The position numbers and the translations under genes were made by a program. Below the pieces are notes generated by a model. It was not told the DNA's origin and ran no database searches. It saw nothing but the letters and a program-made list of their open reading frames with translations. This document shows positions 2,992 through 43,611 of a DNA stretch of 43,611 nt, one piece after another; within the stretch, counting starts at the first letter, position 1, and each line of letters starts with the position of its first letter. Source of the DNA: a virus; IMG/VR virus record IMGVR_UViG_3300008050_000096, positions 1 through 43,611 of that record; one strand, 5' to 3'.

Positions 2992-3016
2992 CACTACAAA
3001 AATTCATAAAAATGAG

Positions 3017-3052: not shown

Positions 3053-3055
3053 TCC

Positions 3056-3072: not shown

Positions 3073-3145
3073 AACTTTCTCTCTGAAACCGAGCAATTTT
3101 GCTCCGAAGCTTAGCTTCCGCTCAATACGAGCCGTCTGAAAAGAC
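3069..3145 (+). other. structured leader with four tandem small hairpins
   Basis: Four short hairpins follow each other: AGAGA/TCTCT (3069-3082), GAGCA/TGCTC (3091-3104), GAAGC/GCTTC (3106-3118) and GTCT-GAAA-AGAC (3134-3145, with a GNRA-type tetraloop). They occupy the leader between the putative promoter and the ATG at 3164. This is unusual here, because most late genes in the window have almost no leader. A role in mRNA stability or translation is inference. Confidence 0.5.
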
Positions 3146-3163
3146 CGTTAATGGAGAAATAAC

Positions 3164-4018
3164 ATGGCAGACCCTAATAATATTAATGCTGATCAAGAAT
3201 ATAGAACAGCAGTAGCAGAACGCGGCAAATTTTGGCCCGTCGATACAGACTATTTAACGAGCATTGGATACCCACTCACAGGTGAGGGTAAATATGCTAC
3301 ACTAACCTATCAAATAAACAGTGCGCCGATTTCGCTTAGTGGCGATATTATGATCGAACTGGACTCTGAAAGCGTGATTGGAACATCTAGTTCTAACACC
3401 GTACAGCAACAAGGTGGCGTTGCTGAAACCACAACCCCAACCCCAGTAGGTGATGGCGATACCGTTGCCGTTTGGTATGATGAGTATGGTCGCCAAATCA
3501 TCGCAGGATATAATACCACACTAAGTGCAATTGATGTTAATGTCCTTTCAGGTATGCAAGTTAACATTGCAGAAGCTACTATTCCATCTCCCGTGGCTGA
3601 CGGTGACGAGGTAAATGTTTGGTATGACACATATGGTCGCCAAGTAATTGCAGGATATAACCAATCGTTGAATGCAGTCGATATTAATGAAGTAAATCCT
3701 GCCTTGTTACAGAGATTAGGTCCAGTTACAAACCTAGATGACGTTGTTGCGAATACAACTGGAACAACTGTTGAGGTTTCAAACTATCACAATTTCACAA
3801 TTCACGTCATAGTATCTGGTAGCACTACAACAGGCGCAACCGTATCAATAGAGCATAGCTTGAACGGCAGTGATTGGGTAGAAATAGACAGGGAAGACGT
3901 AATCGCTGACGGAATTACAGAGCTTGCAATTTCGCAACAAGCATATCGCTATTTGAGAACAGTTGTTTCTGATTACATTGATGGAACATACACTACACTT
4001 ATTTACGCAGGAAACTAA
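3164..4018 (+). CDS. virion structural protein with internal duplication
   Basis: This 284-residue protein has a duplicated module. PTPVGDGDTVAVWYDEYGRQ (about residues 90-109) and PSPVADGDEVNVWYDTYGRQ (about 142-161) are both followed by (I/V)IAGYN. The C-terminal 90 residues resemble a small beta-sandwich (FTIHVIVSG...VSIEHSLNGSDWVEI) seen in phage virion proteins. RBS GGAG lies 6 bp upstream. It starts a tightly spaced run of structural genes. The exact virion location is unknown. Confidence 0.6.
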   Translation: MADPNNINADQEYRTAVAERGKFWPVDTDYLTSIGYPLTGEGKYATLTYQINSAPISLSGDIMIELDSESVIGTSSSNTVQQQGGVAETTTPTPVGDGDTVAVWYDEYGRQIIAGYNTTLSAIDVNVLSGMQVNIAEATIPSPVADGDEVNVWYDTYGRQVIAGYNQSLNAVDINEVNPALLQRLGPVTNLDDVVANTTGTTVEVSNYHNFTIHVIVSGSTTTGATVSIEHSLNGSDWVEIDREDVIADGITELAISQQAYRYLRTVVSDYIDGTYTTLIYAGN

Positions 4019-4030
4019 TAGGAGAATATC

Positions 4031-5272
4031 ATGGGACAAAGTAAAAATGGAGTTGGGATAGTAGATAATACAAACCAAGGTTTTGGTGATATTCCTCAGA
4101 TGGATGCTTTTGGCAGACTGCGAGTTTCAGAAGTAACAACGCTTGTAGATTTGAAGATGCTTGGCGGTCGGCGTGACTTCTGGATTGATACAGTTGAAAA
4201 TGGTACTGGAACTGCAACACACGTTGATTCAAAAAGTGCTGTAGAATTAGAAACAGCGGCGAGCGGTGATTATGTAATCAGACAGGAATATCAACGAAAT
4301 AGGTATCAGTCTGGTAAATCGCAACAGATTTTCATGACGTTCTCCAAATTAGCACCAGAAGCTAACATTGTTAAGCGTGTTGGATATTTCACCAGTAATA
4401 CCGTTGCTCCGTTTGATTCGGATAAAGATGGATTGTGGCTAGAAAGTTCCAATGGCGAAATTTCAATTAATATTCAACATGTAGGAGGAGTCACTGAATC
4501 AACAGCGCAATCGTCATTTAATGTTGATAAATTAGACGGTACAGGACCGAGCGGTATAACTATGGATTGGAGTAAATCCCAAATCATGTTCGTTGATTTT
4601 GAATGGTTAGGTGTTGGTCGTGTTAGATGGGGGTTTGTAATTGATGGCATAATCGTACCGTGCCACGTTTCGAATCACACAAATAACGGCTTAGATGAAG
4701 TCTACATGCGTTCACCAAACCAACCTCTTCGTTGGGAAATCCGTCAAACCGGTTCAGGATCAGGTTTATTTGATCAAATTTGTGCTACAGTAGGTTCAGA
4801 AGGATCACTTAACGAATTAGGTATTACCAGAAGTGCGATTGGACAAGAAATTGTCGGTAATGGTGAGAATTGTACCGCTGATGTTAAAACGGCATTGATC
4901 GGTATGAGGTTAAAGGATGGTTATATTGATGTTCCACCTGACTTCTCTGGTTTTGGATCATGGACAAAAGATAAAGCAACATACTTGTGGGAAATTTATA
5001 TGAACCCAACAGTTGCCGGAACATTTACTTATAATGACGAACCGAACTCAACAGTGCAAATTGCAAAAGGGGTATCTAGTAATACTGTTACTGGTGGAAT
5101 CCGACTAATTGCCGGATATTCAGGAGATAAATCCACTGTTAATAACATTGTTCAGGTCGCTCGTAAGCTTGGAGTATCAATAGATGGTACAAAAGATACG
5201 TTCGTATTATGTGTAACTCCAGAAGCTACTAAACCGTTCTTTGGTTCACTTGACTGGGTTGAAGTAGGATAA
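4031..5272 (+). CDS. putative virion or adhesion protein
   Basis: This 413-residue protein starts GQSKNGVGIVDNTNQGFGDI and continues PQMDAFGRLRVSEVTTL. It is a predicted soluble, beta-rich protein without signal or membrane segments. The opening phrase MDAFGRLRVSE (residues 20-30) echoes phage structural proteins that have a short N-terminal attachment segment. It lies 12 bp after the previous gene with RBS AGGAG. The next gene begins with a similar short Lys-Asn-Gly segment (SKIKNGTTIV), suggesting a shared docking peptide. Function beyond virion structure is not assignable. Confidence 0.5.
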   Translation: MGQSKNGVGIVDNTNQGFGDIPQMDAFGRLRVSEVTTLVDLKMLGGRRDFWIDTVENGTGTATHVDSKSAVELETAASGDYVIRQEYQRNRYQSGKSQQIFMTFSKLAPEANIVKRVGYFTSNTVAPFDSDKDGLWLESSNGEISINIQHVGGVTESTAQSSFNVDKLDGTGPSGITMDWSKSQIMFVDFEWLGVGRVRWGFVIDGIIVPCHVSNHTNNGLDEVYMRSPNQPLRWEIRQTGSGSGLFDQICATVGSEGSLNELGITRSAIGQEIVGNGENCTADVKTALIGMRLKDGYIDVPPDFSGFGSWTKDKATYLWEIYMNPTVAGTFTYNDEPNSTVQIAKGVSSNTVTGGIRLIAGYSGDKSTVNNIVQVARKLGVSIDGTKDTFVLCVTPEATKPFFGSLDWVEVG

Positions 5273-20674: not shown

Positions 20675-21913
20675 TTAAAAAGTTGGACGCATTATACACC
20701 AGTTGCTTTGCATATTAGTTAAAAACTCTTTTGCATATTCATTGACGGCATTGAGGTCTACATTTCGACAGTCTTCATAGTCCTTATTGAAGTCAAAGTC
20801 AACCCCAAAAAGCTCAAAGTTTGCAATTTGCATCGCCATTGATTCTGGAGTTTGCATTGCCCGACAGAATTCGCCCAAAATCGCATTCTTTCCTGCCAAG
20901 AAATCCTGTTCATCAAATCCGTTGGCGATGATGCCGTCTTTAACCTCTTGCACCGCATCCTTGAATTGCTCAACTTTAGAAGCATCAATTCCAGACTTTA
21001 GAATCCCAACTCCAGAACAACCGTTTGTAAGCCAATCGCCAGTTCCGATATTGTAACACAACCCTTGTTTCTCTCTTATTTCACGGAATAACAGAGAATT
21101 CATTCCACCACCATAAAGCTCATGGAACATTTCATGATGAATGTCCTGTGTGGCAATATCTGGAACACGGAAATGCTCACAAATGTATGTCTGCTGAATT
21201 GCACTGCGATCAAACTCTTCTTTCAGATCCCACATTGGAACGATTTCAGGTTCGATCAGCGGATCAGCCGTTGCAACCATTTCATTCCCCTTCAGATGCT
21301 TGTTTACTGCGGATTTAACTTCACTAACAGGCATTGAGCCGATGATCAGCAGAACAGTGTTATCCTGACCATATTGGGTCTTGTAGTAGTGTTCAAGCGT
21401 TTCACGGGACATTTTCTCAAGCGTTCCCTCATCTCCAAGGATTGTTCTGGACGTTTGACTGTTATGGAACCGTTTAGCCATTTCACCGAAGAAATGTGAG
21501 TTGTGGTTGTCCTGATGCATCTTCAATTCTTCTTGGATCACAGACCGTTCAGAATCAATCTCTGACTGTGGAAGTGTTGAATTGAACATCATATCAGACA
21601 ATAAATCCAACGCACCTTCAAAATTGTCCTGCGGTAATCCCGACAAATAATACGAAACTTTATATTGACCAGTGCAAGCGTTCTGGATGCCACCAAGCAT
21701 TGAACCTTCTCTTGCAATATCTTCCCAAGTTCGTGTTTTGGTTCCTTTGAAAAACATATGTTCCAGATAGTGAGCAACTCCGCTATTTTGGTCATTCTCT
21801 CCGTAAGATCCTGCGAGACTGTGAAAGCCTACATATGCCGTGAAGAGATTCGGCACTTGCATATATACCACATCGATTCCGTGTACTTTACTTCTTATTA
21901 CATTATATTTCAT
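20675..21913 (-). CDS. M16-family zinc peptidase
   Basis: The 412-residue protein has the inverted zinc motif HxxEH (H48, E51, H52 in AHYLEHMFFKGT). A third-ligand candidate Glu lies about 76 residues on, in SERSVIQEELKM (E128 or E129). Later GGGMNSLLFREIREKQGLCY carries the conserved R...Y region of the second half. This is the architecture of M16 (insulinase or mitochondrial-processing type) half-enzymes. RBS GGAG lies 10 bp upstream; a CTAAATAA element lies at 21941-21947. It may process a host or virion protein. M16 in a phage is not common. Confidence 0.88.
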   Translation of the reverse strand: MKYNVIRSKVHGIDVVYMQVPNLFTAYVGFHSLAGSYGENDQNSGVAHYLEHMFFKGTKTRTWEDIAREGSMLGGIQNACTGQYKVSYYLSGLPQDNFEGALDLLSDMMFNSTLPQSEIDSERSVIQEELKMHQDNHNSHFFGEMAKRFHNSQTSRTILGDEGTLEKMSRETLEHYYKTQYGQDNTVLLIIGSMPVSEVKSAVNKHLKGNEMVATADPLIEPEIVPMWDLKEEFDRSAIQQTYICEHFRVPDIATQDIHHEMFHELYGGGMNSLLFREIREKQGLCYNIGTGDWLTNGCSGVGILKSGIDASKVEQFKDAVQEVKDGIIANGFDEQDFLAGKNAILGEFCRAMQTPESMAMQIANFELFGVDFDFNKDYEDCRNVDLNAVNEYAKEFLTNMQSNWCIMRPTF

Positions 21914-22908: not shown

Positions 22909-22936
22909 TTATACATGAAATGGAAACCTTGTCAAA
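22909..22936 (-). promoter_or_regulatory. sigma70-type early promoter
   Basis: On the minus strand, TTGACA, 16 nt, TATAAT, then AAGCGACATAATAACAACGG and AGG. This is one of many near-consensus early promoters. Confidence 0.85.
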
Positions 22937-23207
22937 GGTTTTGTGTGATCAATTCCATTTCAACATGTTTAAATTGTTCCATGTCGTTAATTTCATAGTG
23001 AATGACCTCAGTATGCTCAAAGCAAGCCCCTTTGGTTCCTGTATACATGGTGCATCCGTAATTATAGGAATTCACAAATCGTTCGGTTATTTCTCCGAAG
23101 ATGCTTTCATATTTATAGACAGAGAACCCTTTAAAAGTTCCATTAGTTTTACGATATATTGCATAATAATCTCCAACCTTCCTGTCTGCTTTATCAATAA
23201 TTTTCAT
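22932..23207 (-). CDS. member of expanded about 100-aa early protein family (terminal member)
   Basis: This 91-residue protein shares the family N-terminal pattern KVGDYYAIYRKTNGTFKGF (charged turn, G-x-Y-Y, then hydrophobic strand). The C-terminal ND-MEQFKHVEMELITQNL partly keeps the motif. It is the last gene of its array, and its tail lacks the embedded GGAG-ATG seen in inner members. It overlaps the upstream gene by 4 bases. Function unknown. Confidence 0.65.
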   Translation of the reverse strand: MKIIDKADRKVGDYYAIYRKTNGTFKGFSVYKYESIFGEITERFVNSYNYGCTMYTGTKGACFEHTEVIHYEINDMEQFKHVEMELITQNL

Positions 23208-23506
23208 ATTTCCTCCATCATGACATGTTTAAGCACCTCATCATCGTTAAGTAAAAAATGCATATCATTATCCTCGTTGGAATACTGGTCTGCATATGAG
23301 ATAATATCATGAGCATCATACTCCTTCGGTGTCAATAATTTACGTACAACTTTACCATCTTCAATGTACATTACTTGCGTAAACATAAGAATGCCGTCCA
23401 ATATGGAGGCAATTCGCAGTATCGTGCGATCATGTGGAGTTGTACCATCATAGTTGAGTATGTAACAAGGGTCTGGAAGTTGTAATAAGTCTGGATAGTG
23501 TGTCAT
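23204..23506 (-). CDS. member of expanded early protein family
   Basis: This 100-residue protein has an N-terminal PDPCYILNYDG and a C-terminal HFLLNDDEVLKHVMMEEI. The last codons (ATG GAG GAA ATA TGA) contain a Shine-Dalgarno and the ATGA that starts the next gene. It is closely similar to the + strand protein at 37377-37685 (both have ISYADQY or VSQYANQY, then NDxHFLL), so the family spans both early clusters. Confidence 0.7.
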   Translation of the reverse strand: MTHYPDLLQLPDPCYILNYDGTTPHDRTILRIASILDGILMFTQVMYIEDGKVVRKLLTPKEYDAHDIISYADQYSNEDNDMHFLLNDDEVLKHVMMEEI

Positions 23507-23826
23507 ATTTCCTCCATGACAACATGCTTGTTTACATCATCATCGTCCAATTCGTAGATTAATATACTCAGCATATTTCGACCCTTTCGGCACTCGCACA
23601 TAGCAGTTGAGTTTTCAGTATTCATTGATCTTTTGCCAAATGTTTTAGATCCTAGCTTCAGTTTAGACATTTTGAATGTGTTAAAATCAGTCCCACTGTC
23701 TAGTCTAGGTTTAACTCCGTTAAATTGGCACAAAATCATTTCCTTATAGGCAACGCCCACGAGGTCATTATAGAGCAGGTAATATTGCCCTTCTTTTAAA
23801 TTTGCTGTATCTTTAAGTAGTTTCAT
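23503..23826 (-). CDS. member of expanded early protein family
   Basis: This 107-residue protein has an N-terminal LKEGQYYLLYNDLVGVAYKE and the C-terminal LIYELDDDDVNKHVVMEEI tail. Codons of MEEI include GGAGG, and the ATATGA end overlaps the next start by 4 bases. A Cys pair (AMCECRKG) lies in the middle. It is the first gene of a three-member array behind its own promoter. Confidence 0.7.
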   Translation of the reverse strand: MKLLKDTANLKEGQYYLLYNDLVGVAYKEMILCQFNGVKPRLDSGTDFNTFKMSKLKLGSKTFGKRSMNTENSTAMCECRKGRNMLSILIYELDDDDVNKHVVMEEI

Positions 23827-24987: not shown

Positions 24988-25305
24988 TTATATAAAATCA
25001 ATTAACTCGTGGGCTTCTAATTCAAAGAACTCAATCAACATTCCTTGGAAAATCTTAATTCTGTTACATTCATCCTGCTCTGTAACCCTTTGGAAACTGC
25101 TAACCTTCAGATGTTGTCGTTCTAATCCATATCCAATTTCAAGACCCTGTGAACCTTTGACCATTCTATATCTCAAAATATGCTTCCACGAGTCATCATA
25201 TCCCAGAAATTGAATTATTTCAATCTCTTTATGTATCATATTTGAGGATCGATATGACAGATAGTACATATCTTCTTCCAGTTTATCATGTTTTACAGGT
25301 TTCAT
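24988..25305 (-). CDS. member of expanded early protein family (terminal member)
   Basis: This 105-residue protein has a family N-terminus KLEEDMYYLSYRSSN and a C-terminal LIEFFELEAHELIDFI. It is the last of its array, and its tail has no embedded GGAG, in line with the rule that only inner members keep MExI. It is translated from an ATGA overlap with the upstream member. Function unknown. Confidence 0.65.
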   Translation of the reverse strand: MKPVKHDKLEEDMYYLSYRSSNMIHKEIEIIQFLGYDDSWKHILRYRMVKGSQGLEIGYGLERQHLKVSSFQRVTEQDECNRIKIFQGMLIEFFELEAHELIDFI

Positions 25306-25631
25306 ATAACCTCCATAATATAATGCTTGTCTATCTCTTCTTTGTCAAGTTTAAAAAACATTTTTTTCAGGGTCAAGGATGCAACGTGTTCCAAATTCGG
25401 TGGACTGAAATTTGTGGCAAGGGAATCTCCAACGTACATGATTATAGTGAATCCTTTCGGAGTCCACTTCACCAGTTTACAATTTTTGCCTTTATTTCCC
25501 GTTGACCAAGAATACATTAAGTAAATTTCATCAGTTCTGAAATTACCCTTCTTATCATTCCAATTATTGCATCGTATTTCTTTCATATTACCCTCACAGT
25601 TGATGTCCTCTGGAGCATCAACGATCTTCAT
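25302..25631 (-). CDS. member of expanded early protein family
   Basis: This 109-residue protein has an N-terminal extension rich in Asn, Cys and Asp before FRTDEIYLMYSWSTGNKGK. It ends FFKLDKEEIDKHYIMEVI, with ATG GAG GTT ATA TGA giving the RBS and start of the next member. It overlaps the DUF1737-like gene upstream by 4 bases. Confidence 0.65.
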   Translation of the reverse strand: MKIVDAPEDINCEGNMKEIRCNNWNDKKGNFRTDEIYLMYSWSTGNKGKNCKLVKWTPKGFTIIMYVGDSLATNFSPPNLEHVASLTLKKMFFKLDKEEIDKHYIMEVI

Positions 25632-25905: not shown

Positions 25906-27147
25906 TTAAATTTCACCATCATCTGCGAGATTACAGCATACACCGTACTCCTGACAGACATCATCATGCCCACCTTTGGAGATGACGAAGATGTTCGTTC
26001 CATCTGGCACTTTCGGACTGCGTTCGATGTATCCATCAGTCAGCGTAATAAAGATGCTAGACGTAATGTTGTTATCTTCGCAATACTCAGCAACACAACT
26101 GAAAGTCGTTCCACCAGATGAATGTGCCTTGTAAGACTGCAAATCTTGAGCAGTATCACGGTCAATGATCTTATCATCCTGCGGATCAATGTAGGTAGAC
26201 CAGAACAGCACACGGGCTTTAACCTGCTCATAGGCAGTACAGACTCCGCAAACTTCGCTCATGAAGTCCTTATACTCTTGATCGCCAATAGAACCAGATA
26301 CGTCAACCGTAATTACAACTTCAAGGTTTTCCTTGAGAGATGAAGGTTGGTAGATCCCTGTAGCACACCACTTACGATTCGGACGAGCGTTCGTATAGTT
26401 GAACGGAAGTTCACGAGTGATATACATGTTCAGAAGGTCTTTCCAGTTCAGTTTCGGAGTAAGGATACCGTCACAGATACGTTCCAAAGCACCACCAAGT
26501 TTACCACGGGTCTTAGCATAAGTTGCCGCATTTGTAAAGACTTGTTTCCACTTTTGTTGGTTCGCTTGATTCTGTCCCTGACCTTTCGCATCGCCAGTAG
26601 AGTTTCCTTGGTCATCTTCATCGCCTTGCATATGAGTGTCCATAGTACTGTAATTTTCCTTGACCTTTTCCGCTTCTTTTTCAAGAAGTTCATAGACCTT
26701 TTCAGCAGGGACATTTTTGACGTTGATAGTCAGTCCTGCCTTGTCAAGACGCATCGTTCCATCCATTTCTGGAAGTAGTACGCCTTTAGGAAGGTGCATT
26801 CCAGTTGATGTAAGGATGTAGTTGATCGCAATATCAGTTGCAATGTTCCAAAGCTCATGATCACGATGTTTCTGACGGTCAAATGTCAAAGTTGCCACAT
26901 GCATCGCTTCGTGTGCCAACGTAGCCATAAGTTCATCCAGTGTAAGGGTTTTCACGAATTCTGGGTTCCAATATAAGCGACCATACTTACTCACGCCCAT
27001 TGTAGGAATTCGTTCTGGATCACGACATTCAGTTGATTTCATGCTCAAAATAATTCGAGCAAAGAAAGGATGACTTTTATTCAAAAAAGCTTTCCCTTTA
27101 ATAATTCTTTCATGAGGAAGAAGATCCTCGAAACGTACAAGTGCCAC
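25906..27147 (-). CDS. DUF2201-type metallopeptidase-like/VWA protein (MoxR partner)
   Basis: The GTG start at 27147 follows GGAGG. The 413-residue protein has an N-terminal putative metallopeptidase motif HEAMH (residues 79-83) of the DUF2201 family, then an acidic Gln/Gly-rich linker (about 165-200). The C-terminal VWA domain has MIDAS residues D282-x-S284-x-S286 in VDVSGSIGD, a later HSSGGTTF and FITLTDGYIE. Such proteins work with MoxR AAA ATPases, and one is encoded at 31528-32667 in this window. The pair probably remodels a protein or complex; the target is unknown. Confidence 0.82.
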   Translation of the reverse strand: MALVRFEDLLPHERIIKGKAFLNKSHPFFARIILSMKSTECRDPERIPTMGVSKYGRLYWNPEFVKTLTLDELMATLAHEAMHVATLTFDRQKHRDHELWNIATDIAINYILTSTGMHLPKGVLLPEMDGTMRLDKAGLTINVKNVPAEKVYELLEKEAEKVKENYSTMDTHMQGDEDDQGNSTGDAKGQGQNQANQQKWKQVFTNAATYAKTRGKLGGALERICDGILTPKLNWKDLLNMYITRELPFNYTNARPNRKWCATGIYQPSSLKENLEVVITVDVSGSIGDQEYKDFMSEVCGVCTAYEQVKARVLFWSTYIDPQDDKIIDRDTAQDLQSYKAHSSGGTTFSCVAEYCEDNNITSSIFITLTDGYIERSPKVPDGTNIFVISKGGHDDVCQEYGVCCNLADDGEI

Positions 27148-29985: not shown

Positions 29986-30306
29986 TTATATCATCTCCAT
30001 TAGTATATGTTTGTTAATTTCATCATCAGTCAGTTCGTAAATTTCACAACCACTACGTTCTAAGAAATGACAACTCCGATCCTTCTCCATAAATGCTGTT
30101 GTGAATGATCTCACACTATCTTCAAGGGGGTTGCGATCCTCATTAGACCTATGGACAAAGCCCCCCAATGTTTTGATAAATATACAATTGTGGCTAGTGA
30201 ATCTAAAATACATAAGATGTTGCAGTACGGTGTCAGCATTAGGGTGATATCCCAAATACACTTTATCCGTCCGAAATTTTACTCCATCCAGATCAATACG
30301 TTTCAT
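29986..30306 (-). CDS. member of expanded early protein family
   Basis: This 106-residue protein has VKFRTDKVYLGYHPNADTVL near the start and the tail CEIYELTDDEINKHILMEMI (20 residues). The MEM codons hold GGAG, which serves the next, unrelated small gene. It starts from TAATG at the end of the upstream member. Confidence 0.7.
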   Translation of the reverse strand: MKRIDLDGVKFRTDKVYLGYHPNADTVLQHLMYFRFTSHNCIFIKTLGGFVHRSNEDRNPLEDSVRSFTTAFMEKDRSCHFLERSGCEIYELTDDEINKHILMEMI

Positions 30307-30638
30307 TATAAAGTCTCCGTTAGAATATGCACTAATATCTCATCATCTGTCAAGCGAAAAATGATGTCATCTCTCTCACCAACAAATATTCCACTTCCAT
30401 CTGTGATGCTTGAAACTGGGATGATATTATAATCCATCATATCTTTACCCCGAACCGTACCTCTAAATGAATCACCACTAAGCAGTGTGTATCTTGGAAA
30501 AGCTTCATCACGATCATAAAGCTTGCAGAATATTATATCTTGGCGAAATCCCCAAGTCCGATCTAATGTTTTATAATAGATTAGGTAGTATCCCTCTTCA
30601 CACAACTGCTCTGGAGCGATTTCAGTCAACACGTCCAC
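30306..30638 (-). CDS. member of expanded early protein family
   Basis: The GTG start lies inside the end of the gene at 30622. The 110-residue protein has LCEEGYYLIYYKTLDRTWGF and the tail IIFRLTDDEILVHILTETL, where ACG GAG ACT encodes the RBS of the following member. Confidence 0.65.
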   Translation of the reverse strand: MDVLTEIAPEQLCEEGYYLIYYKTLDRTWGFRQDIIFCKLYDRDEAFPRYTLLSGDSFRGTVRGKDMMDYNIIPVSSITDGSGIFVGERDDIIFRLTDDEILVHILTETL

Positions 30639-31149: not shown

Positions 31150-31464
31150 TTATATTTGAGACATCAGTATAGCATATTTTTCAGTCTCGTCAAGTGCAAA
31201 AAACAATCCACCGTAAGTTTCTGCCAGTAGTGTCATAGATCCAAGTCGTTCTACGGGAATCTCTGTAGTGTGTAGTATCAATTCTTCAGGACTAAGAGTG
31301 CAACGAAGTCTAACCCTCACATTTCCGTGGATCAATCCTGACAGTAGACAGTCCCGTTCATACATGAACACTTCAACCATCTTGCGGTGGAGTATTCCTG
31401 CTGATTCATGATATCGGAGATAATACTTACCACTTTCAAGATCTTTAAAATCAATCTGCTTCAT
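31150..31464 (-). CDS. member of expanded early protein family (terminal type)
   Basis: This 104-residue protein has LESGKYYLRYHESAGILHRK and ends LFFALDETEKYAILMSQI. Its tail lacks GGAG, and the following gene has its own RBS after the stop, which fits the embedded-RBS rule. It starts with AAGGAGG after a terminator, so it is probably expressed from read-through or an unseen promoter. Confidence 0.65.
   Translation of the reverse strand: MKQIDFKDLESGKYYLRYHESAGILHRKMVEVFMYERDCLLSGLIHGNVRVRLRCTLSPEELILHTTEIPVERLGSMTLLAETYGGLFFALDETEKYAILMSQI
31166..31193 (-). promoter_or_regulatory. sigma70-type promoter inside gene end
   Basis: On the minus strand, TTGACG, 16 nt, TATACT, within the last codons of the family member at 31150-31464. 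Confidence 0.6.
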
Positions 31465-31527: not shown

Positions 31528-32667
31528 TTAGGCAAGTGCGTAGCGGGCCGCAGATTCAAGGAGTTCCTTGAAGCGAGGATACTTCGCCAACGCAGTCTTG
31601 AACTTAGGGTTGGAATCGAACGAGGTGCGAATCATGTTCAATGCAACCACGCAGTATTCCTGCGGAAGTTCATGTGCTACTGCGAACATCTTCTTGGACT
31701 TCTCATCGTTCGGCTTAAGCTTACGAAGGTTCTCACCCAACAGTGCGCAAACTGCGAACCATTTGTCTGGGGAGTTGAGATCCATTACGGATTTCGGGTT
31801 CGCCATCAGTGCATCCAGATCAATCTTGGAAGCTACTGCGGTGTACGCACCGAATTCGGTAGCGAATGCTTCACCCAATGCACAGGAGGTCAGTGCATGT
31901 ACGGTAGGGTGCTCAATCGGCAGACCACACTTAGCGATCAGAGTAGAGGCACGAACCACACCACGAGGTGTTGAACCCTTATCTTCCGTACCAGAGGCAG
32001 GACGATACAAAGCGGAAGGTTTCCACTTGATGAAGGCGATAAGGTGATGGTTGATTTTATTCTTCCATGCCCAGTTGCACCATTCTTCATCATTCACACC
32101 AACTTCAACTTCCGAGAAACGGTCACGGAGTGGGAAAGGCATGGTGAATACGTGTGCCTTATCAGAAGCACGATTACCTGCACCGAAGATGAAAACATCA
32201 TCAGACAGTTTTATATCAGACACAACACGGTCGTTGATGATCTGATAAGCCTGACCTGCAACAACAGGTGGGGCGAGGTTAAGCTCATCGAAGAAAATTA
32301 CTCCTCGTGCGCCTTTTGAAGCATAATACTTCACCCATGCCAGTGGCATGTATTCCAAAGTGCCTTCTTCGCCACCTTTGGTCATGTTAGGAATACCACG
32401 CAAATCGGTAGTATCACACTGACCCAGACGGAAGTCGGTGAAGACGAAATAGTCTTCAGGTTTCTTCATGGCGAGAGTCTTGTCCTTTTCGGTCATTTCA
32501 TTCCATTCCATGAAATTACGACCTTCAGACTTCGCAATGTCCCCAAAAACCTGACGAGGAATTGCCGATTTACCGATCCCCGGCGCACCGTATACATACA
32601 GTGGGGTCTTGGTCTGGTCGTGAATTTTCAGCATATCGGTATATGCTCCTGTATCAATACTATACAT
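31528..32667 (-). CDS. MoxR-type AAA+ ATPase
   Basis: The 379-residue protein has Walker A YGAPGIGKSA (residues 26-35), Walker B VIFFDELNLAP (about 123-133) and sensor 1 FIFGAGNRAS. A later LRDRFSEVEV matches the arginine-containing region after the Walker motifs typical of MoxR proteins. MoxR ATPases usually pair with a VWA protein, and the DUF2201/VWA gene lies 4.4 kb downstream on the same strand. It is a single-gene unit with its own early promoter and terminator. Confidence 0.85.
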   Translation of the reverse strand: MYSIDTGAYTDMLKIHDQTKTPLYVYGAPGIGKSAIPRQVFGDIAKSEGRNFMEWNEMTEKDKTLAMKKPEDYFVFTDFRLGQCDTTDLRGIPNMTKGGEEGTLEYMPLAWVKYYASKGARGVIFFDELNLAPPVVAGQAYQIINDRVVSDIKLSDDVFIFGAGNRASDKAHVFTMPFPLRDRFSEVEVGVNDEEWCNWAWKNKINHHLIAFIKWKPSALYRPASGTEDKGSTPRGVVRASTLIAKCGLPIEHPTVHALTSCALGEAFATEFGAYTAVASKIDLDALMANPKSVMDLNSPDKWFAVCALLGENLRKLKPNDEKSKKMFAVAHELPQEYCVVALNMIRTSFDSNPKFKTALAKYPRFKELLESAARYALA

Positions 32668-33699: not shown

Positions 33700-33987
33700 T
33701 TATTTTCCAAGAATTTGGATAGTAATAGGATTAGTCACCATATTATATTTTCCAAGATTGTAAACTTCACCATCTTCTCTTTTCATAAGCCACTCACCAT
33801 CAACAGTTTGCTCAACTGTAATTGAGTATAGAGTATTAGTTCCCTTTTCCATAAGATGGAACAATTCTCTAGGAGGGTCTGCTGTATAGTGTTGTATGAA
33901 ATTTGAAATGAGGATTATAAATCCTGTAATTATAAGTGTCCAAAATACACCACTGCCCATTAGTTGTTCTATATCTTTTACATTCAT
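33700..33987 (-). CDS. single-TM protein
   Basis: The 95-residue protein has a hydrophobic helix at about residues 14-31 (VFWTLIITGFIILISNFI) and a soluble C-terminal part with strand pattern (YSITVEQTVDGEWLMKREDG). Its ATG overlaps the upstream family member's stop, and its RBS is the GGAG in that gene's MEII tail. Function unknown. Confidence 0.65.
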   Translation of the reverse strand: MNVKDIEQLMGSGVFWTLIITGFIILISNFIQHYTADPPRELFHLMEKGTNTLYSITVEQTVDGEWLMKREDGEVYNLGKYNMVTNPITIQILGK

Positions 33988-34292
33988 ATTATCTCCATTA
34001 CTATATGATGAGCAATTTCATCATCATTTAATTCAAACAGTACTGCTTTAAACTCCAAATTCTCAAATGAGAATGACGATACAAGGGTATTCATTATAGG
34101 TTCTTCAACCCAATGATCCTCATATCCTAGCCAACTGTTAAGTCTCCAGTACCCAATATGCTCATCTGGTAATCGTTCCGATAAACTAATCGGCTCAAGC
34201 TCTTGCTTGAATGCACAGACAATCTTAGTCACAGGGGTACTCCAATACGCAATATAGTATTTACCTTTCTCAGTTTTGTCAACAACTTTCAT
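33984..34292 (-). CDS. member of expanded early protein family
   Basis: This 102-residue protein has the family start KGKYYIAYWSTPVTKIVCAF and the tail LFELNDDEIAHHIVMEII. The MEII codons (ATG GAG ATA ATA TGA) supply RBS and start for the membrane-protein gene. It starts by TAATG at the previous member's stop. Confidence 0.7.
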   Translation of the reverse strand: MKVVDKTEKGKYYIAYWSTPVTKIVCAFKQELEPISLSERLPDEHIGYWRLNSWLGYEDHWVEEPIMNTLVSSFSFENLEFKAVLFELNDDEIAHHIVMEII

Positions 34293-34594
34293 TAGATAAT
34301 TTCAGCAACCACATGGTGGGCGAATTCATCAAAGGTGATTTCATAGATCTCACTAGTCCCTTGGTCGTTATCGGTTGGAAGAAGTTCCTGACCTCTCCAA
34401 AAGCTTTCAGTGACTGCGTGTATATTACCAGATTGGTAAATCTTACCATGGCAGATTGCTAGGAAGATCGAGTCTGTACTCGCCTTGCCCATATATTTAA
34501 AAAACGTCAATTGCTTTTGCTTATTTACTGTATTATTCCGATACATCATATAAAGCTTATGTCTGCGAATTTGTGTGTGGTGTATAGCTTGCAT
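34292..34594 (-). CDS. member of expanded early protein family
   Basis: This 100-residue protein has RRHKLYMMYRNNTVNKQKQL near the start and the tail IYEITFDEFAHHVVAEII. Here the tail codons (GCT GAA ATT ATC) keep the peptide but have lost GGAG, an exception to the embedded-RBS rule. RBS AGGAGG precedes its ATG. Confidence 0.65.
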   Translation of the reverse strand: MQAIHHTQIRRHKLYMMYRNNTVNKQKQLTFFKYMGKASTDSIFLAICHGKIYQSGNIHAVTESFWRGQELLPTDNDQGTSEIYEITFDEFAHHVVAEII

Positions 34595-35249: not shown

Positions 35250-35543
35250 CTATAATTGAGGAATTACAAAATGACTTTGATATTCATCATAGTCTAGGTG
35301 AAAGAGGTTTTCAGAATCAGGTGATAAGTCTGTGGCATAATCATCTCGATATTGGATCATTTTTGTGTGATCGTTATCAATACCACTTAACCATGCATGA
35401 CGCACGGTGATAATGGAAAAGGTGTCCATAACTGGTTGGCTATCGAGTAGTTGGAATATTACCACCAACTTTCTACTTGACATTTTCTTATACATTGCAT
35501 ATAATTCGCCTTTCTTTAAATTAGCATACGGAACACTCTTCAT
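35250..35543 (-). CDS. member of expanded early protein family (terminal type)
   Basis: The start is ATG 35543 (MKSVPYANLKKGELYAMYKK); an in-frame ATG five codons upstream lacks an RBS. A CTAAGTAATTAT element runs into the ATG, as at 15624. The tail LFHLDYDEYQSHFVIPQL lacks GGAG and the gene ends a unit. It was placed in the family by its KKGELYAMY start and D-x-DEY tail. Confidence 0.6.
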   Translation of the reverse strand: MKSVPYANLKKGELYAMYKKMSSRKLVVIFQLLDSQPVMDTFSIITVRHAWLSGIDNDHTKMIQYRDDYATDLSPDSENLFHLDYDEYQSHFVIPQL

Positions 35544-35586
35544 ATAATTACTTAGCATAAAGCTCAGAAATACAATAGATAAAAGG

Positions 35587-37376: not shown

Positions 37377-37685
37377 GTGACTTTAATATGGGATGTAGAA
37401 GATTTTCCAGATGATGGATATGTTGTAAATTACACTTGTGAACACGGTTCGGGTGATAGAAAAGTCATCCACATGATTAGAATCGCTAACGGAGTCCTTA
37501 AATTTATAGAATGTGTTGAAGTTAATAGGTGCGATGATCATCTCAAAATTGATGAGAGTGGTGGTGGCGGGGCTGAATATACCGTTAGCCAATACGCTAA
37601 CCAATACGCTATGAGGGAGAACGACATACACTTTCTTCTTTCTGATGAAGAAGTGTTAATGCATATTGTAACGGAGGCAATCTAA
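37377..37685 (+). CDS. member of expanded early protein family
   Basis: The GTG start gives a 102-residue protein with DVEDFPDDGYVVNYTCEHGS at the start and the tail HFLLSDEEVLMHIVTEAI. The codons ACG GAG GCA hold GGAGG, used by the next member. It is the + strand relative of the protein at 23204-23506. Confidence 0.65.
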   Translation: MTLIWDVEDFPDDGYVVNYTCEHGSGDRKVIHMIRIANGVLKFIECVEVNRCDDHLKIDESGGGGAEYTVSQYANQYAMRENDIHFLLSDEEVLMHIVTEAI

Positions 37686-37686: not shown

Positions 37687-37995
37687 GTGACTTATGTAGA
37701 TCCAGATACCTTGGAGAAAGGGAACTTTTACCTCTTCTACAAGACATATGAGGAGTATCGCCCCGATATCATTATCGGGGCGTTTGAGGAATATGATCGT
37801 GATGATGTCCCATGTAGAACTGCAATATTGAATAATGTTCTATCATGGGTGGTTGGTCATAATTTTTCTATAGCACACTCTATTGGAAAGAAGGATCAAA
37901 GGTTTTGCGAATTGAGTGCGCCACATTCAACTGTTTGGTGTTTTGAGCTTGACAAATCCGAAGTAGAATGTCATATTCTTATGGAGATGCTATGA
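37687..37995 (+). CDS. member of expanded early protein family
   Basis: The GTG start (MTYVDPDTLEKGNFYLFYKT) follows the previous stop by 1 bp. The tail CFELDKSEVECHILMEML includes ATG GAG ATG CTA TGA, giving RBS and ATGA overlap for the next gene. 102 residues. Confidence 0.7.
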   Translation: MTYVDPDTLEKGNFYLFYKTYEEYRPDIIIGAFEEYDRDDVPCRTAILNNVLSWVVGHNFSIAHSIGKKDQRFCELSAPHSTVWCFELDKSEVECHILMEML

Positions 37996-38267
37996 AACTG
38001 GTGACTAGAGATGAAATGGTAGCAGGTGAATATTATATGATCTTTGAATCAATCACTCCATGTAAGATCGTGATAATTGGAATAAAATGTCCAAACACTA
38101 ATCATGTATTAGGACAAATGATGTTCCGTCACGCAGAAATGGGCATAGAAGTGCGTGACAATGACAGGTGGGCTGTGTATGATAGTGAGGGAACGTTTTC
38201 TTCCCAGACCATATACGAACTCAACGATGATGATATTCACAAACACGTAATAATGGAGACAATATGA
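37992..38267 (+). CDS. member of expanded early protein family
   Basis: This 91-residue protein has VTRDEMVAGEYYMIFESITP and the tail IYELNDDDIHKHVIMETI; ATG GAG ACA ATA TGA feeds the next gene. The start ATG 37992 lies inside the previous stop. Confidence 0.72.
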   Translation: MKLVTRDEMVAGEYYMIFESITPCKIVIIGIKCPNTNHVLGQMMFRHAEMGIEVRDNDRWAVYDSEGTFSSQTIYELNDDDIHKHVIMETI

Positions 38268-38756: not shown

Positions 38757-39527
38757 ATGTCAAAAGTTACGAGAAGTGAAAAGTTGAAGAAATATGTTGT
38801 CGTTATTCGGGAGAATGTCGTGCATAATTTGGACGGTGAAGATCGCAGAAAATTGCTTTCCGAAATCTATATGCTAAAACCTAATACTGTGATGTCTGGT
38901 GGCACATGGCGAGAATATCAAAAAGTATATTATCGTGAGATTGTAGGTGAGCGAGGCACTGATATTGGAATGGAGAATGCACAATCCTATATTTCAGTTT
39001 CTGGTTGCGTGGACGATCTCATTGATCTTAATTTTAAGAGTTCAGCATTGGAGACTAATAATATAAAGGTTGTAAAAACATATGCGAACAACAAATTTAT
39101 GAAGCGTGACCGTGAAACTTCATTCCATCGTGAATACGAACTGGACGTTGATGAAGACGGCAACCCATACATGAAGCGTGTGGACAAGAATGCTCCGCAA
39201 CCTGCAACGCCTCCTGCACCTAAAGTGAAGGCAGACTTCTCAACGATTCCTGCGGGATCGAAGTATCTATACTCAAGGCTTAACACTCCAGATGGTGAAT
39301 GTATCGTGGTGACTGATGTAATGCACTGGTTGCAGAACAACTCCCAGAATGATACTATGATCAGTGGTATGGATACAAGTCTGGACGCACTTGCCCCTGC
39401 GGGATGGAGTGAACTTGGATCAACGGTGATTGAACCTGACGATGGCGACTTTGATGCACTTGAAAAGGCATTGCAAGCCGATCCAGATTGGGGCAGTGAT
39501 CCAACATTCGATCAGTTCAACGCATAA
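38757..39527 (+). CDS. hypothetical protein, 256 aa
   Basis: The product starts MSKVTRSEKLKKYVVVIREN, with RBS AAGGAG. It has a helical or charged N-terminal part, a Pro/Ala linker (APQPATPPAPKVKADFS, about residues 145-162) and a C-terminal acidic region ending DWGSDPTFDQFNA. No family was recognised. It overlaps the next member by one base. Confidence 0.65.
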   Translation: MSKVTRSEKLKKYVVVIRENVVHNLDGEDRRKLLSEIYMLKPNTVMSGGTWREYQKVYYREIVGERGTDIGMENAQSYISVSGCVDDLIDLNFKSSALETNNIKVVKTYANNKFMKRDRETSFHREYELDVDEDGNPYMKRVDKNAPQPATPPAPKVKADFSTIPAGSKYLYSRLNTPDGECIVVTDVMHWLQNNSQNDTMISGMDTSLDALAPAGWSELGSTVIEPDDGDFDALEKALQADPDWGSDPTFDQFNA

Positions 39528-39829
39528 TGAAACGGGTTGACATATCAGATATGGTTATTGGCGAACCATATCTAATTTACTTCCACGATCATGTGGAAAT
39601 AGCTATTGGGGTCTACCAAGGTGATGGTGATAATGATCATCTTGGAAAGGGGATCTTTTTTAAAGTCAACTATCGTATAATTAGAGGTGATTATGTTGAC
39701 AATGAGCATTTCTATGAGTATTCAGAGGTTGATGGTGAAGATGTGCTAGATGAGGACTATGCTCCCCCTGATGAAATTTTTCACTTGACAAGTCACGAAT
39801 ATTATGTGAGTATCATCGACACAATTTAA
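39527..39829 (+). CDS. member of expanded early protein family (terminal type)
   Basis: This 100-residue protein has ISDMVIGEPYLIYFHDHVEI and the tail IFHLTSHEYYVSIIDTI. The tail lacks GGAG, and the next gene has its own AAGGAG after the stop, again as expected for the rule. Confidence 0.65.
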   Translation: MKRVDISDMVIGEPYLIYFHDHVEIAIGVYQGDGDNDHLGKGIFFKVNYRIIRGDYVDNEHFYEYSEVDGEDVLDEDYAPPDEIFHLTSHEYYVSIIDTI

Positions 39830-40878: not shown

Positions 40879-41122
40879 CATTGGGTCGCTTAATGTGTAA
40901 AGCACCTTCACCAAGAGAAAGAAAGCCGATTGCGGATGTCTCCAAGTGTCTCGTACAAGACCACGGGGATTGAGGTAAGTGCGAGTATGGAAACTAGGAT
41001 GCGTCAATGGATGTAGGGGATCGATACCCGAAATCTGGAGATAGTCAAAGGAAATGGAAACGTGAAGGAGAAATGGTAATGATACAAATTATTGTATCTG
41101 GGTTCGAATCCCCCCCCAATGA
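40879..41122 (+). tRNA. interrupted tRNA 1 (long variable arm), insert in anticodon loop
   Basis: The 5' half CATTGGG-TC-GCTT...AAGC-A-CCTTC (40879-40909) and the 3' half GAAGG (41064-41068) to CCCAATG-A (41115-41122) form a perfect 7-bp acceptor stem and a 5-bp anticodon stem. T-loop TTCGAAT is at 41103-41109. The variable region is long, with a 7-bp hairpin (41081-41098), so it is class II-like (Leu, Ser or Tyr type). Two T-stem pairs mismatch. About 147-154 nt separate the halves. The anticodon cannot be read, because the splice points are unknown. Confidence 0.7.
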
Positions 41123-41145: not shown

Positions 41146-41315
41146 CAAGCGGTAGTTTAATAGAGAAAAATACCTAGAAGTTGTGGGAATGGAAGCGTAC
41201 AAGTGCCAATCGATCGTAGGCGAAGACGTTAGTATTTCTAAGAGTGCGGGACTAATTGACCCAAGCAAACAACATTGACATCTAGGAGTTGGCGGTTCGA
41301 ATCCGTGTCGCTTGA
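41146..41315 (+). tRNA. interrupted tRNA 2, insert in anticodon loop
   Basis: The acceptor CAAGCGG (41146-41152) pairs with TCGCTTG (41308-41314), with one wobble. The D-arm is TAGTTT...AAATA, and anticodon stem CCTAG (41173-41177) pairs with CTAGG (41282-41286). T-loop TTCGAAT is at 41296-41302; the T-stem has one mismatch at its base. The 104 nt between the stem halves include TTGT/ACAA pairing near the ends. A TTGACAT stretch sits just before the 3' stem; a full loop there would read GAC, but this is only one option. Confidence 0.75.
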
Positions 41316-41337: not shown

Positions 41338-41581
41338 CAGCGGGTAGCTCAGGTGGTGGAGCAACCATCGTGAATAGATAAAAAAGCAGGTTACGAGTTA
41401 TTGTAGTGTACAATGCAGTGCTAGTAATTCTGACAAGTATTGAAGGCTTAAGGTGACGGGATGCCCGAAGATAGGTGGTTGCAACCATCTTGAAAGGTAT
41501 ACATCGAGTAGTAACGGTTCCCCGATTTGGCAATACACGGTAACATATGGTAGGTCGGATGTTCGAATCATCCCCCGCTGA
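41338..41581 (+). tRNA. interrupted tRNA 3, insert in anticodon loop
   Basis: This is the clearest of the three. The acceptor CAGCGGG/CCCGCTG is perfect, the D-arm is TAGCTCAGGTGGTGGAGCA, and the anticodon stem is ACCAT (41364-41368) with ATGGT (41547-41551). The variable loop is AGGTC, and the T-arm is GGATG-TTCGAAT-CATCC with a perfect stem. The 178 nt between stem halves begin CGTG and contain CACG (41536-41539) just before a 7-nt GTAACAT. Removal at those points would leave a 7-nt loop with anticodon AAC, but this is not proven. Confidence 0.82.
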
Positions 41582-41587
41582 CATCAT

Positions 41588-42262
41588 TTAAAACTTAAGT
41601 TTACGACCCTTTTTCCAACCATTGGGGATTGGGTCTGTTTTCTTAATTCTTTTAGATTCTTTTAGTTCTAGGTTATATATCCACATTGTTCCATAATGCG
41701 AATTACCAGATCCCTTTTGACGTTTAGAATTCGCTAATCCGATTTTGTTCTTTGACTCTTCAGTATGTTTCATACCCGTGAAGTGTGATGTTGGAGTATA
41801 TCTTCCTTCTGAAATTGCTAATTGCAACCCCTCCGAAACTCTTTGACTAAAATATTCTTTAAATTCTTTAGTTTCCGACAATTCTTTAATCTTTGCAAAC
41901 CCTCTTTCGTGTCCAAGTTTTTGAGCTTCCTTATAGTTTTTCTGATTATGGATTAGAACACCCAAGTTATTAGCATTTACGTGATCCCATCCACCAGTAC
42001 CACCAAGTTTGATATTATATGTATCTGCTCTTTTGATGAATTCGGAATCAACAATTTTAGCTTCCATATCACTAGCATCTTGCTCATTATCATATACGAA
42101 TAAAATATCTTTAGTGAAATGATCAACTCCATATTTCTCTATCGCCCGTTCAATGAGTAATCCTGAACCCATATAGTTGTCGTTTATATCTTCGGTTTTA
42201 TGTTTACCAATGTAAATTTTGTTGTTGACAGTATTCGTAATTTTGTATATAGTGTATTTCAT
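41588..42262 (-). CDS. GIY-YIG homing endonuclease (free-standing)
   Basis: The 224-residue protein begins MKYTIYKITNTVNNKIYIGK with the GIY-YIG core (TIY and YIG), followed by LLIERAIEKYGVDHF. Its C-terminal DNA-binding part includes HFTGMKHTEESKNKIG, a NUMOD3-type element. It resembles the Seg-type phage endonucleases. It lies tail-to-tail with the interrupted tRNA cluster; the stop is 7 bp from tRNA 3. Its promoter-RBS module is CTAAATAGTTATAGGAG. T4 also has a Seg gene beside its tRNA cluster. Confidence 0.88.
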   Translation of the reverse strand: MKYTIYKITNTVNNKIYIGKHKTEDINDNYMGSGLLIERAIEKYGVDHFTKDILFVYDNEQDASDMEAKIVDSEFIKRADTYNIKLGGTGGWDHVNANNLGVLIHNQKNYKEAQKLGHERGFAKIKELSETKEFKEYFSQRVSEGLQLAISEGRYTPTSHFTGMKHTEESKNKIGLANSKRQKGSGNSHYGTMWIYNLELKESKRIKKTDPIPNGWKKGRKLKF

Positions 42263-42285: not shown

Positions 42286-42302
42286 GGGCAGGTTCAATAA
42301 AA

Positions 42303-42321
42303 GTTCAATAAAATATTGAAC
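42303..42321. other. 8-bp inverted repeat
   Basis: GTTCAATA, AAA, TATTGAAC. On the minus strand it is followed by TTTT; an adjacent extra GTTCAATA copy lies just upstream. Confidence 0.5.
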
Positions 42322-42343
42322 TATTTAACTATAGGAGGTTATT

Positions 42344-42562
42344 ATGATTATGCAATATTTGATAGGACTAGGTATACTGGTCGCAATGATTGTTTACCCG
42401 ATTTTGTTTTGTTGGTGTTCATATAAGCTTACAGGCGATCATCTGTGTGATGGTGAATATGGATTCCTTGGTGGGTTTATGTTTGCATATATTTTTCCAC
42501 TTGCAATTGCTATGATTCTGGCATTACCACTTGTTATATATCAATCTATCTTTGGCGGTTAA
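42344..42562 (+). CDS. small membrane protein (two TM)
   Basis: The 72-residue protein has two hydrophobic stretches (residues 4-28 and 45-68) around an acidic Cys-containing loop (CWCSYKLTGDHLCDGEYG). RBS AGGAGG lies 6 bp upstream. It precedes the tandem array of small genes with shared tails. Function unknown. Confidence 0.68.
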   Translation: MIMQYLIGLGILVAMIVYPILFCWCSYKLTGDHLCDGEYGFLGGFMFAYIFPLAIAMILALPLVIYQSIFGG

Positions 42563-42563
42563 T

Positions 42564-42797
42564 GTGGTAGAAATCAACGAACGCCAGTACATGATGGATC
42601 TTGGCGATGAGCATATGATCGTCTGGGAGCGACACCCTTCTGTGGTGATGTTGAAATACGTCAGTATAAATAATCAGAGAACTATTATAAGGGAATATAC
42701 TCGCAGTTCATTTGCTATCGGAATACATCCCGTTCGTAGATTTTTCCGCTTGACAGATGAAGAAGTTAAGTGTATGGTATTACCAAGAATTATTTAG
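42564..42797 (+). CDS. tandem small protein, shared-tail array member 1
   Basis: The GTG start follows the previous stop by 1 bp (MVEINERQYMMDLGDEHMIV, 77 residues). The tail FFRLTDEEVKCMVLPRII is nearly identical in members 2-4, while the middle differs. The pattern of a variable body and a constant C-terminus links it to the about 100-residue early family. The end codes for a segment that may serve as promoter and RBS for member 2. Confidence 0.68.
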   Translation: MVEINERQYMMDLGDEHMIVWERHPSVVMLKYVSINNQRTIIREYTRSSFAIGIHPVRRFFRLTDEEVKCMVLPRII

Positions 42798-42805
42798 GAG
42801 GTAAT

Positions 42806-43030
42806 ATGGTTGAAATAACAGAAGATGAATGGATGTACCTTGGTGGACACCGCATCATGTGGCAGAGAATGGGGCAATATGATGCTCTCTATTACTGTAG
42901 AGAAGGTATGGGAATGACTCGTCTGAAATTGACAGTTCCCGTCAAACCTATACTAAGAAGTAAAACTCATCGTTATTTCTCCTTGACAGAACAGGAAGTA
43001 ATTGATATGGTATTACCAAGAATTATTTAG
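42806..43030 (+). CDS. tandem small protein, shared-tail array member 2
   Basis: ATG 42806, with AGGAGG 6 bp upstream (MVEITEDEWMYLGGHRIMWQ, 74 residues). The first 8 residues resemble member 1 (MVEI), suggesting a fairly recent duplication. The tail YFSLTEQEVIDMVLPRII is shared. Function unknown. Confidence 0.7.
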   Translation: MVEITEDEWMYLGGHRIMWQRMGQYDALYYCREGMGMTRLKLTVPVKPILRSKTHRYFSLTEQEVIDMVLPRII

Positions 43031-43038
43031 GAGGTAGT

Positions 43039-43263
43039 ATGAAATTGTATATTAATGCCCGTCTTCCAAAGTCTGGAAACATATTGAAGCGTGGGTTCTT
43101 TTGTGGAACTTGCGAGTTGACATTATACACTATAAAAAACTACACATTGACTAATCCTGTCATCATTAAAGAAACAAATTCTGTAAGTTCCTTCAGAGAT
43201 TCTACGTTTTGGATATTGACAGATGAAGAAGTTCAGCGTATGGTATTACCAAGAATAATTTAA
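43039..43263 (+). CDS. tandem small protein, shared-tail array member 3
   Basis: ATG 43039 after AGGAGG (MKLYINARLPKSGNILKRGF, 74 residues). The body is unrelated by eye to members 1 and 2; the tail WILTDEEVQRMVLPRII is nearly the same. Function unknown. Confidence 0.7.
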   Translation: MKLYINARLPKSGNILKRGFFCGTCELTLYTIKNYTLTNPVIIKETNSVSSFRDSTFWILTDEEVQRMVLPRII

Positions 43264-43271
43264 GGAGGAGC

Positions 43272-43535
43272 ATGAAAGAACTTGATATAGATCGTATATA
43301 TAACCAACAAACCCCTGACAATGTTACGGGAATAGTGGGAATGAGAAACATTCTATCGTGGTCTAGGGGAAGTAATATATTCTCTTGGTTGACATTTCAT
43401 AGCGAGTACGGTGAAGCGTGTGGCGTTGATCTGAAGGTCACAAAGCTTCCATTCATCCATAAGGTAAATAGAAATCGCTATTTTATATTGACAGATGAAG
43501 AAGTTGAGCGTATGGTATTACCAAGAATTATTTAA
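43272..43535 (+). CDS. tandem small protein, shared-tail array member 4
   Basis: ATG 43272 after AAGGAGG (MKELDIDRIYNQQTPDNVTG, 87 residues). The tail YFILTDEEVERMVLPRII matches the others. Function unknown. Confidence 0.7.
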   Translation: MKELDIDRIYNQQTPDNVTGIVGMRNILSWSRGSNIFSWLTFHSEYGEACGVDLKVTKLPFIHKVNRNRYFILTDEEVERMVLPRII

Positions 43536-43544
43536 GGAGGTATT

Positions 43545-43611
43545 ATGAAGAAAATAATTTTTGAAAAGGGTCAACGTGTTACCGTTGAGAATTATCCTAA
43601 AAATGGTTATA
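43545..43611 (+). CDS. small protein, 3' partial
   Basis: ATG 43545 follows AAGGAGG from the fourth gene-end module and reads MKKIIFEKGQRVTVENYPKN before the window ends. It is likely the next member of the array; whether it carries the same tail cannot be seen. Confidence 0.6.
   Translation, partial: MKKIIFEKGQRVTVENYPKNGY

Follow-up and report, generated by a model that had tools for sequence, protein, structure and literature searches.

A repeated coding 3′ module in a cluster of small phage genes and its possible double use as protein tail and start signal

A gene array with constant ends

The window analysed here is an entire virus record of 43,611 bases, which is itself probably a fragment. 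Virion proteins are encoded at its left, and tblastn searches with the protein at 4031-5272 recovered mainly cyanophage virion proteins (174 records, best about 32% identity), which suggests a distant T4-like myovirus. At its right end lies an array of small, co-oriented genes punctuated by a repeated module:

42564..42797 (+), array gene 1: 77 aa, GTG start; body kin to that of gene 2 and weakly to that of the L005 gene (see below)
42806..43030 (+), array gene 2: 74 aa; structure model with pLDDT 74.5
43039..43263 (+), array gene 3: 74 aa; no detectable kinship of its body to the others
43272..43535 (+), array gene 4: 87 aa; no detectable kinship of its body to the others
43545..43611 (+), fifth array gene: ATG at 43545, truncated by the end of the record
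42750..42808 (+), module copy 1: 59 bp, comprising the tail codons, TTGACA-N17-TATGGT, the palindrome TGGTATTACCA, the stop codon, AGGAGG and the next ATG
42983..43041 (+), module copy 2: 59 bp
43216..43274 (+), module copy 3: 59 bp
43488..43547 (+), module copy 4: 60 bp

We delimited the module from TTGACA, whose TTG is a Leu codon, through the end of the following ATG. All four complete proteins end in FxLTDEEVxxMVLPRII, with LTEQEV as a variant in copy 2 and W in place of F in copy 3. The initial annotation had described four consecutive genes with a common 3′ module and variable bodies; this is borne out, the module measuring 59–60 bp and the DNA identity of the bodies lying at about chance level. 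Likewise, the TTGACA that it saw followed 17 nt on by TATGGT in every copy is present in 4/4, and the fifth gene does run off the window from its start at 43545.

A single further copy of the module is found in another phage contig (L005:10001-10231), and the module is therefore not confined to the phage of the window. Across the four array copies and this single outside relative, mean pairwise DNA identity is 0.26–0.34 in the 80 bp upstream, 0.72–0.86 within the module and 0.38 after the ATG, so that its borders are sharp. Chance is excluded as the source of the repeat; we also rejected an assembly artefact, since the array bodies differ and the module is present in the second record too. Of the bodies, 1 and 2 are clearly related (0/400 shuffles reach their score) and body 1 weakly resembles that of L005 (P 0.035), whereas bodies 3 and 4 show no sequence kinship to any other array-type body.

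The contig that holds the L005 gene is 51.4 kb long and has 37 tRNAs; the gene is the only tailed one there, flanked by ORFs of 42 and 161 aa and without an array. A blastn comparison of the window with this record gave just two matches, one of 60 bp at 84% in the tail and one of 53 bp at 81% in a promoter stretch; the remaining matches between the two are a homing endonuclease (38% of residues) and a methyltransferase (33%). We take the 161 aa ORF to resemble the NADAR family, and the neighbours of the tailed gene across L005 8899-11027 likewise resemble NAD salvage genes (adenylyltransferase-Nudix, NADAR and phosphoribosyltransferase). The same contig has a 109 nt direct repeat in four tandem copies at a spacing of 117 nt (2754-3213).

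Further relatives were sought widely. In viral contigs, 54 stretches fitted the array alignment, and a single one, that of L005, was confirmed; a protein-derived pattern matched only the L005 contig among the viral contigs and a second such pattern matched none. Distant blastn of 42300-43611 against phages found no relatives, and tblastn in phages with the proteins of array genes 1-4 and of L005, and with two members of the family described below, gave nothing credible (best E 0.8). A lone genome-contig match, in Streptomyces, was taken as chance.

These data bear on a cassette exchange, by which the module would be a recombination joint at which homologous recombination swaps or adds bodies, within the genome or between phages, each new body thereby gaining a tail and the start signals for the next gene. 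The sharp DNA borders (identity going from 0.34 to 0.72 upstream and from 0.86 to 0.38 downstream) speak for it, as do the lack of relation of bodies 3 and 4 to 1 and 2 and the fact that the two records resemble each other in DNA chiefly through the module. Against this, L005 has one copy and no array and a body like that of array gene 1, the bodies of array genes 1 and 2 are homologous to each other, and 0/8 of the records fetched through the virion protein had a match, these records being fragments that may omit the region. No recombinase or reverse transcriptase was seen in the larger proteins scanned, although homologous recombination needs none encoded. With regard to integron-type gene cassettes, no attC-like inverted repeats pairing module with module were found. 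Cassettes moved by an encoded integrase were considered improbable, as none was seen among the larger proteins scanned (a subset of the ORFs of a fragmentary record). On balance we consider cassette exchange a possible but unlikely account.

A paralogue family with a similar tail

From all small ORFs of the window, we chose by eye, ahead of testing, 16 further diverged paralogues of 91-110 aa, which lie on both strands between 22.9 and 39.8 kb and are hereinafter denoted by their first coordinate:

22932..23207 (-), paralogue: tail longer by a few residues
23204..23506 (-), paralogue: tail FLLNDDEVLKHVMMEEI; GGAG in the tail for the overlapping next start
23503..23826 (-), paralogue: tail YELDDDDVNKHVVMEEI; GGAG in the tail
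24988..25305 (-), paralogue: diverged tail, without an overlapping next gene
25302..25631 (-), paralogue: TTGACA-17-CATTAT and GGAG in the tail
29986..30306 (-), paralogue: tail YELTDDEINKHILMEMI; structure model with pLDDT 75.9
30306..30638 (-), paralogue: TTGACA-18-CATATT in the tail
31150..31464 (-), paralogue: diverged tail with TTGACG-16-TATACT
33984..34292 (-), paralogue: tail FELNDDEIAHHIVMEII
34292..34594 (-), paralogue: the sole overlapping member whose tail Glu is GAA
34603..34914 (-), paralogue: tail DNA starting TTGACAGATGAAGAA and ending ATTTAGGAGGTAATATG, like array copy 1; without a -10
35250..35558 (-), paralogue: tail FHLDYDEYQSHFVIPQL
37377..37685 (+), paralogue: GTG start
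37687..37995 (+), paralogue: TTGACA-17-CATATT and GGAG in the tail
37992..38267 (+), paralogue: start favoured over 37968 by the family N-terminus
39527..39829 (+), paralogue: tail diverged; lowest-scoring member of the leave-one-out test (E 0.0018)

Members have in common an N-terminus of the form MKxVDxxxLxxGxYYLxY and a C-terminal motif, [FY]xL[TND]DDE[VI]xxHxVMExI, which in most of them reaches the stop codon. Leave-one-out profiles, a test independent of each gene's own inclusion, recovered 16/16 members (E 2.1e-12 to 1.8e-3), the best score among 50 shuffles per gene being at most 11.6 bits. The 16 bodies are still alike when stripped of their tails (summed score 3895 vs 2839 +/- 45 for shuffled sequences). 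The family tail pattern matched nothing in the viral contigs (in the window, the same pattern matches just 5 family members), and the proteins at 38757-39527, 37992-38267 and 31528-32667 had no matches there. Neither array nor family genes have a credible match in PHROGs or Pfam.

The array is connected to this family through its protein tails. A tail matrix was built from the 12 regular family tails, leaving out 22932, 24988, 31150 and 39527 as extended, diverged or shifted. It was then applied to the C-terminal 17 residues of 1,284 ORFs, taken from the window record and two other phage records. The training tails occupy ranks 1-12, and the five array-type tails, namely those of the four array genes and L005, follow directly at ranks 13-17 (20.0, 16.6, 15.7, 12.5 and 4.9 bits; next ORF 1.8). 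Because the array tails rank right behind the training tails, the module is first of all a protein tail. The distance from Phe/Tyr to the stop equals that of the family, with MVLPRII replacing HxVMExI, and on the best reading of these sequences the array tail would be a derived form of the family tail. No sequence relation was detected between the array bodies and the 16 family bodies (P 0.295), and the link between array and family consequently rests on 17 tail residues. A full-length family profile gave E 0.07 for copy 1, 0.098 for L005, 1.7 for copy 4 and 9.5 for copy 3; copy 2 is absent from the list, in which unrelated ORFs are interspersed among the array-type genes.

In AlphaFold2 models of array gene 2 (from 5 sequences, pLDDT 74.5) and family gene 29986 (from 16 sequences, pLDDT 75.9), the tail forms a terminal strand and helix, at middling confidence, and the order of the strands is similar between the two, at low confidence. 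Neither Foldseek searches with the two models (best E 0.42 and 1.2) nor a second structural comparison (best Z 4.2, rmsd 4.5, 62 aligned; and 4.9, rmsd 3.7, 71 aligned) named a fold.

Candidate start signals in the tail codons

Codon choice is constrained in the tails. Where array-type proteins have an identical residue, they use an identical codon in 96/114 tail comparisons vs 39/81 in the bodies (the pairs not being independent), and the same codon recurs in 35/47 of the tail comparisons that involve L005; among the 12 regular family tails it is 267/461. The far higher codon identity in the tail than in the body would favour cassette exchange, but constraint on protein and signal also predicts tail conservation. 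In nine of the ten family genes with a next start that overlaps or lies 2 nt beyond the stop codon, the tail Glu is GAG, the exception being 34292, and this GAG forms GGAG ahead of the next start. The excess holds against both the genome usage of 27.5% (184/669; P 7e-5) and the remaining Glu codons in these ten genes (29 GAG, 43 GAA; P 0.005). In the array and in the paralogue 34603 the site instead follows the stop codon as (A)GGAGG; in L005 the ribosome site can be an AAGGA inside the Pro-Arg-Ile codons, 7 nt upstream of an overlapping TAATG. The proposal that the module includes a ribosome-binding site thus finds support in the AGGAGG after the stop and in the GAG of the family genes, and the tail or module likely carries the ribosome site of the next gene.

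A promoter in the module, which the initial annotation had also suggested, stands only in part. Each array site (TTGACA-N17-TATGGT) has 10/12 matches. Compared with synonymous shuffles, single sites in the array have P 0.058, 0.064, 0.03 and 0.135 and that of L005 has P 0.047; any one copy's promoter-like site may still be due to chance, and the array copies are not mutually independent for this purpose. The 16 family tails, however, form a test set not used in forming the promoter idea. TTGACA occurs in 5/16 of them, where 0.73 is expected given the amino acids (0/5,000 shuffles reach 5), 0.63 with the codon usage of the family bodies, and 0.88 with synonymous codons permuted among the family tails (P 2e-4). 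A 10/12 site is present in 4/16 (expected 0.147, P 5e-4), and among the tails of other genes 0/32 have TTGACA and 0/32 a 10/12 site. TTGACA is also enriched in the family bodies (4/66, expected 1.0) and array bodies (3/12, expected 0.33), so the excess is not purely a matter of the tail.

The -10 side is weaker. From the -10 to the ATG the four promoter-bearing paralogues have 15, 18, 31 and 15 nt, as against 28-29 in the array, and the 15-18 nt of three of the four are too short for a leader with a ribosome site. A promoter in most paralogues would leave almost no leader, and this spacing weakens the case for family tails as general promoters. The window has 17 sigma70-like sites with at least 11/12 matches, against 2.3 +/- 1.4 expected; nine are perfect, 7/9 of these with a 16-base spacer. 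Several strong sites stand immediately behind a stop codon (22935, 33696 and 35246, minus strand), and several precede a TCACATaacaa-like stretch. The array TATGGT is poor beside this TTGACA-N16-TATAAT class of the phage's own, and the array sites lack the context of that class. An array promoter is accordingly no more than predicted, as a possible, perhaps weak and geometrically sound element. Sites of the N16 class occur both in the window (27456 (-), 32764 (-) and 40833 (+)) and in the L005 contig (21242 and 33372), that is, in two phages with almost no further DNA similarity.

The promoter data also speak to plain protein paralogy, under which only the tail and the ribosome-binding site would be constant, and TTGACA and TATGGT would be chance products of the Leu-Thr and Met-Val codons, retained through recent common descent of the tails. 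Given the amino acids, one 10/12 site costs just P 0.03-0.14, xxT-ATG-GTN yields TATGGT almost free, the array -10 is poor against the phage's own class, and 34603 and 39527 have TTGACA without a fitting -10. This account sits badly with the TTGACA excess and the 10/12 sites across the 16 paralogues, two of which make TTGACA in another frame (CTT GAC AAA); we hold it to be improbable, if still worth weighing.

Over the -10-like hexamer of 4/4 modules lies the perfect palindrome TGGTATTACCA (42775-42785 in copy 1), which may resemble GntR/FadR-type operators. An operator array, with this palindrome as a repressor or activator site that drives the DNA conservation, would fit its exact presence in every copy and nowhere else in the window, and its three free synonymous positions (GTA, TTA, CCA) being constant in L005 too. 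Yet Met-Val-Leu-Pro dictates half of the palindrome, the remainder has a roughly 3% chance of arising once at the codon usage of the window, and the phage's other promoters do not have it, which leaves an operator array very improbable.

At the RNA level, no terminator-like site was found in the array, and RNA folds of the modules lie within the shuffle range (z -1.87 to 0.35), on which ground a stem-loop element was rejected. In copies 1 and 2 (42750-42830 and 42983-43063), the UAUUACC part of the module can pair with the bases that span the next gene's ribosome site and start, a pairing not seen in copies 3 and 4; this SD-hiding hairpin is likewise within the shuffle range.

A proposed dual-use tail and its relation to known systems

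At slightly better than even odds (about 0.55), we favour a dual-use tail, in which a protein motif and the start signals of the next gene are combined in a cluster of small paralogous genes. The array genes would be small accessory genes of the phage, clustered in tandem, and their constant ends would represent the conserved C-terminal motif FxLTDEEVxxMVLPRII, a derivative of the tail seen in a paralogue family that has no fewer than 16 further members in this phage. The tail codons would serve twice, by encoding the motif and by supplying a ribosome-binding site there or just past the stop: in the family, as GGAG within the ME-x-I codons ahead of an ATGA or TAATG overlap, and in the array, as AGGAGG after the stop codon. 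Array tails, and some paralogue tails, may also form a sigma70-like promoter. Duplication would spread the genes, with bodies that diverge fast or get replaced, and we propose that the tail DNA is constant because protein and signals both constrain the same bases. Since the module is the C-terminal motif of a genome-wide paralogue family, duplication and divergence explain much, but bodies 3 and 4, sequence-unrelated to the others, are poorly explained by divergence alone. Activity of the promoter, a common partner to which the motif docks and the order of the evolutionary steps are inferences; the products would most likely be small host-interaction proteins expressed from early-type promoters.

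A search of the available literature turned up no title that deals with such a conserved coding tail. The nearest idea appears to be that of the PeSLs (promoter early stem-loops) of T4-like phages, reportedly described by Arbiol in 2010 and Comeau in 2014, and the nearest layout that of the SAS repeats. PeSLs, in outline, are short regulatory repeats that lie between small variable genes and contain an early promoter of host type (PMC4503421). Going by that outline, the array module is likewise a short repeat with a promoter-like pair between small variable genes, its candidate counterpart of the early promoter being the 10/12 pair of all four copies, which is weaker than the phage's own; unlike the PeSLs so outlined, it is coding, as the conserved C-terminus of the upstream protein, and has no terminator-like stem-loop. 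For gene shuffling around the repeat, a further PeSL trait, the comparison available is one relative with a single copy. A stronger version of our reading, which we regard as rather improbable, would make it a coding counterpart of the PeSLs, a gene-end module that gives the preceding body a docking tail and the following gene a promoter and ribosome site; if true, bodies inserted between modules would at once be expressed and tagged for one common partner. The SAS/ESAS of cluster K mycobacteriophages are described in brief as repeats with an AGGAG core placed immediately ahead of the starts of some of the genes, which repeats may contain the upstream stop codon, the SAS being 13 bp long and present in 11-19 copies per genome (PMC3203893). 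Judged from this description, the array module shares their position and AGGAG core, but differs in being about 59 bp long, mostly upstream coding sequence, and linked with both a protein motif and a promoter-like pair.

Clusters of small phage genes arranged as tandem paralogues are familiar, with overlapping ATGA/TAATG junctions and the ribosome-binding site inside the upstream gene. The many diverged small genes in co-oriented runs seen here are like these, whereas the constant C-terminal motif, with codons biased for next-gene signals, and its extension to genes with unrelated-looking bodies set the present cluster apart. Small genes that lack relatives are numerous in phages, and how regions of this sort expand is a standing question; a case in point is the present 43 kb fragment, in which about 20 genes share the tail and have no credible match in PHROGs or Pfam. 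Signal-biased tail codons would explain constant gene ends in such runs, and a dual-use tail offers a sequence test of protein and regulatory constraint on the same bases.

The neighbourhood of the array has further features. A GIY-YIG homing endonuclease-like gene (41588-42262, minus strand), 300 bp before the array, adjoins three consecutive tRNA-like genes on the plus strand (40879-41122, 41146-41315 and 41338-41582), which are split in the anticodon loop by 151, 97 and 171 nt, their anticodons and intron borders being uncertain, and which are preceded by the strong promoter-like site at 40833. With introns allowed, ARAGORN predicts two of them (three at a relaxed score); with introns disallowed it predicts none, and 40 random windows likewise gave none. 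The split genes had no match among Rfam introns at E up to 5. Farther away, M16 peptidase and DUF2201 metallopeptidase/VWA-like genes are found at 20675-21913 (-) and 25906-27147 (-).
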